This document shows positions 1 to 23,580 of a stretch of DNA of 64,000 nt, one piece after another. Position numbers and translations under genes: made by a program. Source of the stretch: Methanococcoides methylutens. Lineage in GTDB: Archaea > Halobacteriota > Methanosarcinia > Methanosarcinales > Methanosarcinaceae. The stretch's first letter is position 1. Each line of letters opens with the position of its first letter. Location of the stretch: the NCBI RefSeq assembly GCF_000765475.1, contig NZ_JRHO01000014.1, positions 217,574-281,573 on the forward strand. Direction: 5' to 3'. The notes under the pieces are model-generated. The model saw only the letters and a program-made list of their open reading frames with translations, made no database searches and had not been told where the DNA came from.

Positions 1-554
1 GGGTTTCTCAGAAGCGGGTTCATACCCTGTCCATCCACAAGCGGGTATGCTGATACAAATGGATTCCAGTTGGAAATGTCAACGTATGCACCTACGCCCC
101 CATAATACATGGAGAACGGATTCTTCAATACCAGCAACATAAGGAAAACTGTAATGATGCACAGGCATATTGCACGTGTGATGTTCATTAGCCTGATGTC
201 GTACAGCTCTTTTGTGTGGCCTGTGTACTGCATTGCCAGAAGCATCAGCAGGGTGAACCATGTCCAGAGCAGGAATGAACCTTCCTGGCCTGCCCACAAT
301 GCGGAAAGACGATAGACAAATTCAAGATCGATACTTGAATGCATGTAAACATAAACGTAAGATGCGGATACCGTGAGCAGATAGTAGGTAAGCATCAGGA
401 TAGCGAGTGTGATGACGGCTGTACATCCAACCTCAAGCTTTCTGGAAAGTGAACCTGCACGAATATTATTTGTACGCAGATCGATGATAGAATATATCGC
501 TGAGCCAGCACCAAGGATAAAGGCAATCCATATGAGAATCATTCCAAAGTTCAT
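1..554 (-). CDS. ccmF1: Cytochrome c heme lyase, N-terminal part (CcmF1), partial
   Basis: N-terminal half of the CcmF/CycK heme-lyase family, which attaches heme to apocytochrome c on the outer face of the membrane. About 184 codons are visible before the window edge. The frame shows several hydrophobic helices, the family signature LWAGQEGSFLLW near residue 80, and a later stretch ending MNPLLRNP that matches the CcmF G-x-NPLL-x-NP motif. The ATG at 554 overlaps the stop of ccmF2 as ATGA, so the two are probably translationally coupled. The C-terminal part of the protein is encoded upstream, the reverse of protein order. The 3' end is cut by the window edge. Family call is firm; the split is seen directly. 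Confidence 0.85.
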   Translation of the reverse strand, partial: MNFGMILIWIAFILGAGSAIYSIIDLRTNNIRAGSLSRKLEVGCTAVITLAILMLTYYLLTVSASYVYVYMHSSIDLEFVYRLSALWAGQEGSFLLWTWFTLLMLLAMQYTGHTKELYDIRLMNITRAICLCIITVFLMLLVLKNPFSMYYGGVGAYVDISNWNPFVSAYPLVDGQGMNPLLRN

Positions 555-1537
555 TTCTTACCCCCCTTAGGACGTTCTGAACCCTTGTTTCTTTTTCCTT
601 TTATCTTAGCCACAGGAGTTGTGGCCTTTCCATCAGTTGAATAATCGATCACTCCAAGAACAGCCATGCCGCCGAGCATCATGAACAGGCCGCCCCAGAT
701 GAATGTGATGAAAGGTACTGTCCTAACATATATGCTGACTTCACCACTGGTCTCGTTTACCGCTTTGGGTGCGATGAACAGTTCCTCGAATATGCCACGA
801 TGTACATAGGTAGTTGTGTACGTCTGGCCCCATTTGAAATCAGTTATGTATTTGATCTGACCACTATCAAAATAAGCGCCTTTTTTGTAGACATCGAAAT
901 CCACATAGGTTGCATAAGAAGAACCGTGATACTCCTTATAGTGAGAACCTTCAAAAGTTGAATCCATTCCGGTAACAGAAACCATGTAGTTCTGCCCTTC
1001 GAACTAGCCGGCAGAGTCCATGGAGACCACAGAAGAACCATCTACCTTCAAATTGCTGCTGGCAACGATCCCTATGAGTATCAGAATTATCCCAAGATGG
1101 ATAACATGTGCACTGACACCTCGCAGTTTCATTGCACGTGAGTCCCTCTGGAGAGACATATAGATCTTATAGAATGTAGCGACCAGAGCCATGCTCACCA
1201 CAGGCACTGTAACATCAAGAGGAAGGTTTCCAAAAGGAGACAGAAAAGCAAATGCTATGGAGATTGCAACTGTGAAACCACCAACGAACAACGTTCTCTT
1301 CGCATCGAAATAACCATAAAGCAAACCCATCGTAAGCAATACTACCAGCGCTGCTGTGGGAAGAGCACTCCTGTTGTTAAAATATTCAGCACTCATGCCC
1401 ATCTCGACGCCTGTGGTCAGCCTGACTATCAGTGGTGTTAACATGCCCACAGTTATAAGAGCAGCAAGGAGCAGCATGGTCAATACCGCTGCCAGCATTA
1501 TATTACTGCTGTTTACGAGGTCTTTGCTTTTTTTCAT
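551..1537 (-). CDS. ccmF2: Cytochrome c heme lyase, C-terminal part (CcmF2), with in-frame TAG
   Basis: The C-terminal half of CcmF. The first ~175 codons contain a GMLTPLI element, a downstream YFN, and a His-bearing helix (AHVIHLGIILILIGI) typical of CcmF transmembrane heme contacts. After codon 178 the same frame continues through TAG at 1004-1006 into a soluble segment and a final helix (YVRTVPFITFIWGGLFMMLGG), again typical of CcmF. Neither piece is a complete CcmF C-terminus alone, so I annotate one 328-residue gene with TAG as a sense codon (candidate pyrrolysine) or read-through. Start: ATG 1537; GTG 1546 is an alternative and neither has a strong ribosome site. Ends in TGA, overlapping ccmF1. 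Alternative: recent nonsense mutation or sequence error. Confidence 0.75.
1004..1006 (-). other. In-frame TAG in ccmF2 (candidate pyrrolysine codon)
   Basis: TAG at codon 178 of ccmF2. The frame stays open for 150 codons afterwards and retains CcmF C-terminal features. The nearest ATG after the TAG lies six codons downstream, has no Shine-Dalgarno sequence, and would give a fragment lacking most of the family domain. Confidence 0.6.
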
Positions 1538-1663
1538 GAAATTCACAATCGTTACGTCTGTTCAAATATGTATCGGTACTGACATTAAAAAAACAGGATC
1601 AATAATGATAAAATAGTGATGATATTTTGATAGATCCTGATAGAATATTTATAACATGCAGAT

Positions 1664-22020: not shown

Positions 22021-22452
22021 GTGGATGTGAATGATAATATTTTTTAAAAGCTCAAAGTGAAATGTGCGGTTAGATAGAACATTTCTATAATGATCGCACG
22101 ATTTATTTTCGGATTAAATTTTGAAACTATTTTTTAAGCAGTCTTGCTTATGATTTGCAGGAGCCGTTCAGGTTCATTGTGGAATTGCTGTAACATCTTG
22201 GTTTTCATGTACATCCTCCACACTAAACATTCTCTTATACTCCAATATCATTACCTACCTCTACCTTCTAACTCATTGTAGCTGTTCATTATGAATTTAA
22301 CATTTCAGGATTCTAGTTACTCAACATTCTAAGATTCAAAATTTGTGAGGTAAGTATTATATCTCAGAACTGCCTAAAGATTGTTGCTTGCTAACAGATG
22401 AAAATAAGTGATCTGTTGTTTTAATATATTCGAATAATAGGCGAGAACAATC
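22021..22452. other. Intergenic region
   Basis: 432 bases, AT-rich. Only a possible 24-codon minus-strand frame (22134-22208) stands out. A TATATT sequence at about 22423-22428 may promote the following small gene cluster. Confidence 0.4.
22134..22208 (-). CDS. Possible micro-ORF
   Basis: 24 codons on the minus strand, start ATG 22208. A GGAGG lies six bases upstream and a TATAAG-like element some 30 bases further up. Product begins MKTKMLQQF and is unrecognised. The signals are good but the frame is too short to judge; it could be the surviving 5' end of a lost gene. Confidence 0.25.
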   Translation of the reverse strand: MKTKMLQQFHNEPERLLQIISKTA

Positions 22453-22605
22453 ATGATGTCTAAATTTAGAAATTTTTTGGCAATTAGTATACCAATAGCG
22501 ATTATCATATTATTCATATCGTTATCTGAAAGATGGGATACAATTGGTCCTTTAAGCATTCTTTATATCTTAGTAGGTGGACTGTTCTGGAAATTTGTAA
22601 AATAA
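22453..22605 (+). CDS. Small two-helix membrane protein
   Basis: 50 residues from ATG 22453. Two hydrophobic stretches (FLAISIPIAIIILFI and a second around ILYILVGGLFW) separated by a polar SERWDTIG turn, so a probable hairpin in the membrane. No clear ribosome site. First member of a run of small genes that continues to 23580; no family recognised. Confidence 0.5.
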   Translation: MMSKFRNFLAISIPIAIIILFISLSERWDTIGPLSILYILVGGLFWKFVK

Positions 22606-22632
22606 GCAGAACTTAATTGAGATGATTTTTGT

Positions 22633-23022
22633 ATGAAACCTAAAATCGAAGTCTTGGCATATATTGAACAACTTGATAAGATGATTGAAAGATGTATGGA
22701 GTTAAAGGAATACAGTAGCTCAGACTTATTCTAGAGTAAAAAGCGCGGTGTGGAATGGACATTAAAAGAGAGCTGCCACAACGATTTCACAATATGGAAA
22801 CCAGATCCTCACAGGAAAACCGAGGATGAAATCGCTGACCGCATATATGAGCTTAAACGGCTTATAGAACGTTGTAATAGATATGGGGAACCATCTGCAA
22901 CGACATTTATAAAAAGTCAGCTCGAAGGTTTAGAATGGGTACTAGAAGACAGCAATCGTATGTCATATGAGAGAGGACGACGCTATCTCAAAAATCAAGA
23001 AAACAAAGAATGCAAGGATTAA
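22633..23022 (+). CDS. Small duplicated protein with in-frame TAG
   Basis: 129 residues reading TAG 22732-22734 (codon 34) as sense. The protein consists of two ~45-residue repeats offset by exactly 60 residues: IERC, E, S, S, G-x-EW and L-x-x-S positions all coincide (for example GVEW at 39-42 with GLEW at 99-102). In that gapless alignment the TAG at 34 matches Lys 94. The second repeat alone (from GTG 22750) would lack the first one entirely. Function unknown; helical, charged, cytoplasmic. Overlaps the next gene by 13 bases. A nonsense mutation remains possible, but the aligned Lys supports pyrrolysine or read-through. Confidence 0.6.
22732..22734 (+). other. In-frame TAG aligned to Lys of the internal repeat
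   Basis: Codon 34 of the duplicated protein. The equivalent codon in the second repeat (22912-22914) is AAA. Lys to TAG needs one (from AAG) or two base changes. Confidence 0.6.
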
Positions 23023-23381
23023 ATTTCAACCTTCCTACAATCTCGCACATTAATCGTTCTAAGAATTGTGGTAAAAATTTATTTAACAAATCTAATCATT
23101 TTTTAAGTGAAATGAGACCTGATAGATCATTAAGTGATATCATCGAAAGTTTGGTGATTGGACTTGTAGTTAGCAGAAGCCAAAAATATTTGCCGATCAT
23201 CACATTATGCATTGGTGTGGTTGTACTATTCCTAATTTTAGATTGCTCCTCAAAAAGAGCATTAGATGCTGGTAAAGCTACGTGGGATATGATTATGCTG
23301 GCAACAATAACTCCTACCAAGCTTATTGTAAAGTCAATAATTCAGAGCATCTTTGATGTAATTCGTGGTTTTCATGGCTGA
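23010..23381 (+). CDS. Small membrane protein
   Basis: 123 residues from ATG 23010, overlapping the previous gene by 13 bases; ATG 23112 is an alternative start giving 90 residues. One strong transmembrane segment (about 65-80, LPIITLCIGVVVLFLIL) and a second weaker hydrophobic or amphipathic region near the C-terminus. Not recognised. The overlaps with both neighbours suggest a single transcript. Confidence 0.5.
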   Translation: MQGLNFNLPTISHINRSKNCGKNLFNKSNHFLSEMRPDRSLSDIIESLVIGLVVSRSQKYLPIITLCIGVVVLFLILDCSSKRALDAGKATWDMIMLATITPTKLIVKSIIQSIFDVIRGFHG

Positions 23382-23580
23382 TAATATTAATGTGCCTAAT
23401 CTGTTAGACCTATTGAATCAATCCTTAAGCATTTTAAGGAATTCATCTCATCGATTCATGGATGAAACAGAATCGTTTTATTCAGGTAAAATCGAACTGC
23501 CAAACGGGGAGAAACAGCAGACATTCATATCATTAAACGAGCTTGGCAAGTACAGAATAATGCTACCAGAAGACTACTAA
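23374..23580 (+). CDS. Small hypothetical protein
   Basis: 68 residues from ATG 23374, overlapping the previous gene by 8 bases. Begins MADNINVPNLLDLLNQSL, amphipathic helices then a beta-like C-terminus (GKYRIMLPEDY). No family recognised. Last gene of the cluster 22453-23580. Confidence 0.5.
   Translation: MADNINVPNLLDLLNQSLSILRNSSHRFMDETESFYSGKIELPNGEKQQTFISLNELGKYRIMLPEDY

Follow-up and report, generated by a model that had tools for sequence, protein, structure and literature searches.

The 64,000-nucleotide stretch of Methanococcoides methylutens DNA that we analysed (the window) carries an orphan gene interrupted by a single in-frame TAG, and the sequence of the gene and its genome makes pyrrolysine the most likely meaning of this codon. 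The genome contains the pyl genes, rarely ends genes with TAG and holds TAG inside conserved proteins, and for these reasons pyrrolysine is the best reading of the target TAG. We regard as probable a joint account in which TAG is mainly a sense codon in this genome, the gene lies on an acquired 1.5-kb segment, pyrrolysine would be inserted at codon 34 if the gene is translated, and the site is near-neutral.

Translation bore out the claim of a preliminary description that the frame runs through the TAG, which is preceded by 33 codons and followed by 95 codons and a TAA. The TAG was the sole break across the 129 codons, which were free of frameshifts, and the computed probability of a stop-free run of 95 codons at the same DNA composition was ~5×10−4. 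The codon-usage score of the frame was positive both upstream and downstream of the TAG (0.16 and 0.09 per codon, respectively), though low among the scores of coding genes; the other five frames scored negative. When the protein was aligned with itself without gaps and with the TAG column treated as unknown, the best alignment had an offset of 60 (residues 2–47 versus 62–107, 16 of 46 identical) and a score of 77 (controls: next best offset, 29; maximum of 5,000 shuffles, 50). The motifs IERC and G-x-E-W match between the two repeats at this offset. The segments before and after the TAG also aligned in register when scored separately (32 and 34), so the frame is genuine before and after the TAG and has not shifted. 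Codon score and repeat similarity thus agree that coding sequence flanks the TAG on either side, as expected of a pyrrolysine protein. In a single-sequence structure model (mean pLDDT 54.7), helices were predicted at residues 6–27, 37–50, 64–84, 87–106 and 109–128, with the TAG position just before the second helix. This low-confidence model, which was of too low quality for a fold search, suggests two helical-hairpin repeats. Coordinates are given in Table 1.

Table 1. Features of the orphan gene and of the island that carries it (positions in the window)
Feature	Position	Strand	Basis or remark
Low-GC island, 1,492 bp	22088..23579	.	Absent at the same site in closest relative G001; ends share CTA
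Small membrane protein, 50 aa	22453..22605	+	66% identical copy in G005
Orphan two-repeat protein	22633..23022	+	129 aa with TAG as amino acid; translation, repeat alignment
Repeat 1 (residues 2–47)	22636..22773	+	Offset-60 self-alignment
In-frame TAG, codon 34, proposed pyrrolysine	22732..22734	+	Translation, repeat alignment, genome context
Repeat 2 (residues 62–107)	22816..22953	+	Offset-60 self-alignment
AAA, Lys94, opposite TAG in repeat 2	22912..22914	+	Self-alignment
Orphan ORF, 123 aa	23010..23381	+	Starts inside end of TAG gene; codon score not coding-like
Truncated gene	23365..23580	+	C-terminal 66 residues of a 118–126 aa family

A search of the genome for pyl genes, proposed in the preliminary description as a check, recovered the complete set of pylT, pylS, pylB, pylC and pylD. 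The four protein-coding genes are consecutive in the same assembly, each scoring over its curated model cut-off, and tRNA-Pyl (anticodon CTA) adjoins pylS. Competition between Pyl-tRNA and release factor at UAG has been reported in these archaea (PMC9499178). The pylB gene (L003:7458-8591, − strand) itself ends in TAG, one base ahead of the pylC start, and readthrough would add 42 codons. This TAG end is known in related species (PMC2933860) and is possibly a means of self-regulation. An MtmB homologue in the same genome (L069:1501-2850) is without an in-frame TAG; it may belong to the non-pyrrolysine type that the title of PMC13044021 mentions.

Among non-overlapping ORFs of at least 100 aa in ~716 kb, TAG was the terminator in 10 of 575, whereas 17.8% was expected from the TAG share of all TAA, TAG and TGA triplets (binomial p ~3×10−35). 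Five TAG-ended ORFs reach 200 aa or more; apart from pylB, all of them continue into coding-like sequence. Beyond the target, at least seven further genes with recognised domains hold an in-frame TAG in the ~716 kb, and the codon lies within Pfam-matched stretches of UvrD-type helicase, histidine kinase, FrhB/FdhB-like and CcmF-like proteins. Taking TGA or TAA as sense gave about as many readthrough ORFs as taking TAG did; we therefore did not take the bare readthrough count as evidence and used stop usage and orthologue alignments instead. Rare as a terminator and present inside conserved domains, TAG appears from the sequence to be mainly a pyrrolysine sense codon in this genome.

Two of these TAG sites are shared within the genus. 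The CcmF-like gene (window 551-1546, − strand) has its TAG at codon 181, which G000 and six related Methanococcoides genomes share at the same codon; three other genus relatives have His in this column, and Thr, Gln, Glu, Ser, Ile, Asn, Tyr and, once, Lys occur further out. This Lys, from a distant CcmF relative in a highly variable column, was the only one among the TAG-site orthologues. In the FrhB/FdhB-like gene (L024:2558-3763, + strand), an in-domain TAG at codon 356 is common to G000 and five relatives (six genomes of the genus) at the same codon, and the four other species compared have Tyr. The UvrD-type helicase/nuclease gene (L052:2163-5219, + strand) carries its TAG in this genome only, at the conserved stretch NYRSSSQIV-Q; at this site its relatives encode Gln (CAG or CAA) and, in one case, Glu. 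Orthologues of the histidine kinase have Tyr, His or Ser, and those of an MTHFR C-terminal protein Glu, Met, Gln or Arg. Over the five TAG genes with readable orthologues, the commonest residues were thus His, Tyr, Gln, Tyr and Glu/Met; a sensor gene (L058) was excluded from this tally because its TAG is probably upstream of the true start. Judged by these alignments, TAG in this genome stands in for many residues and seldom for Lys.

These results bear on the argument that Lys94 is the protein's own control for what the TAG encodes. The underlying observation, a gapless alignment at a 60-residue offset with the TAG opposite Lys94 (AAA), was reproduced, as the score above the shuffle maximum indicates. 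The inference drawn from it was not upheld. With the repeats only 35% identical, a match in a single column is not strong evidence; in the second half, three of 46 aligned residues are Lys, and AAA is two substitutions away from TAG. Together with the varied residues at the other TAG sites, these figures defeat the own-control argument. We consider the Lys opposite the TAG to be weak evidence, a coincidence of roughly one in ten by our own estimate. Its failure as a control leaves the pyrrolysine reading uncontradicted.

The target protein and its repeat profile found no orthologue in genomes of the genus, family, order and phylum or in phages, plasmids, and viral and genome contigs, and searches of Pfam, PHROGs and NCBIfam gave no convincing match. 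For the TAG site, Lys94 of the internal repeat is thus the one residue at hand for comparison. In the phylum, the best of the weak matches had E 0.003 and came from one of 393 genomes; we dismissed these matches as chance. Viral contig L177 contains a 59-aa hairpin-like ORF, upstream of a gene related to one on the island, that was alike by eye, but profile comparison gave a probability of 0.2%. Similarity to the methylamine methyltransferases MtmB, MtbB and MttB was absent in Pfam and NCBIfam searches, so the site does lie outside these enzymes, as had been proposed. It is not special in this respect, since at least seven other genes here hold a TAG and Thg1 is a published case.

The gene lies on an island with a GC content of 34%, compared with 42% for the window. 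In G001, the island flanks are joined directly (blastn junction; empty site in L117), and the target was not found in the other genomes of the genus searched. The copy of the small membrane protein in G005 has different neighbours. The last ORF of the island is the truncated gene, which retains residues 54–119 of its family. Members of this family occur in several Methanosarcinaceae, where they usually stand behind an acidic protein of 67–71 aa, and in one tailed-virus contig. The viral member (L177:4827-5198, + strand; 123 aa, uncharacterised family) adjoins genes that resemble, by inspection, those for terminase, portal and head proteins. No relative of the target was found among the neighbours of the island-gene relatives. 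The island probably derives from a virus or plasmid, and the target is probably a mobile-element gene that was acquired recently and whose amber codon is tolerated. The simplest history is that mobile DNA was gained and then partly decayed; alternatively, the empty site in G001 could reflect a deletion there.

The truncated gene within the island makes decay plausible, and the main rival, which we hold to be unlikely, is that the target is a decaying or untranslated mobile-element remnant in which the TAG is one meaningless lesion. The absence of the island from the closest relative, its low GC, the truncation downstream, the failure to find orthologues and the weak codon score all fit this alternative; the lack of an orthologue showing purifying selection and the low codon score likewise count against the joint account. 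Against the remnant stand a single TAG and no frameshift over 129 codons, repeat similarity kept on each side of the TAG and the improbable stop-free run, and in this genome a TAG need not truncate. It is very unlikely that the TAG instead ends a 33-residue peptide and that a separate 90-residue protein starts at GTG 22750. This in-frame GTG, 15 bases past the TAG, does open a 90-aa ORF, and TAG terminates pylB here and in related genomes (PMC2933860), but no ribosome-binding site ahead of the GTG was obvious by inspection, the first 33 residues resemble repeat 2 and have a positive codon score, and TAG terminators are rare in the genome.

A further alternative, to which we give next to no weight, holds that pyrrolysine at codon 34 was selected for a lysine-like or reactive role, as played by Lys94 in the other repeat, and would represent a use outside methyl transfer. 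The alignment of Lys94 with the TAG speaks for it. The low repeat identity speaks against it, as do the mainly His, Tyr, Gln and Glu residues replaced at other genomic TAG sites, and the searches found no orthologue in which the site could be conserved. A search for a PYLIS-type stem-loop 3′ of the target TAG found no structured element (z −0.59; 48 of 200 shuffles folded equally well or better). Such an element is optional, and pyrrolysine insertion does not require one.

We return to the pyrrolysine reading with a near-neutral site. In a Methanococcoides genome where TAG would have been turned mainly into a pyrrolysine sense codon, a segment of ~1.5 kb may have been acquired recently, bringing the orphan two-repeat gene, and a TAG would have arisen at its codon 34. 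On translation, tRNA-Pyl (CUA anticodon) would place pyrrolysine there to give a protein of 129 residues, with some termination at UAG presumably competing with insertion. The pyrrolysine would be a tolerated, near-neutral substitution and not a catalytic residue. What the analysis shows is the frame, its repeats, the pyl genes, how seldom TAG terminates, the TAG within other conserved genes and the island; expression of the gene, insertion at codon 34 and neutrality of the site are what we infer. Neutral gain predicts the variety of residues that orthologues show at other TAG sites, and from this analysis we judge codon 34 to be near-neutral, as in Thg1.

Kivenson and co-workers (Science, 2025) are said to have described archaea of which some read all TAG as pyrrolysine. 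This genome, which seldom ends genes with TAG and has it within many conserved genes, fits such a code; unlike those conserved genes, the target is without known orthologues and adds one more putative site. MtmB, MtbB and MttB share with the target an in-frame TAG and the same tRNA and synthetase as decoder, but pyrrolysine is catalytic and conserved in these enzymes, and the target is dissimilar in sequence. A closer parallel is the tRNA-His guanylyltransferase Thg1 of Methanosarcina acetivorans, in which pyrrolysine was gained by neutral evolution according to the account in PMC2933860, citing Heinemann 2009. In both cases, a pyl-proficient member of the Methanosarcinaceae has one in-frame TAG in a gene other than those for methylamine methyltransferases, and nothing suggests that the residue is essential. 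Thg1, however, is a conserved enzyme in which pyrrolysine was observed, whereas the target is an orphan gene, known from its sequence, on an island that looks mobile.

The target thus extends a known phenomenon by one case, fairly ordinary in a genome reading nearly all TAG as sense. The plausible pyrrolysine site that it contributes lies on DNA that was probably acquired recently. For proteomics, the CcmF-like TAG gene is a better target than the orphan gene. Our findings also show how poorly an aligned residue predicts the meaning of a TAG. Under the standard code, automatic annotation would truncate the target at this codon, and would do the same to conserved genes at other loci of the genome.
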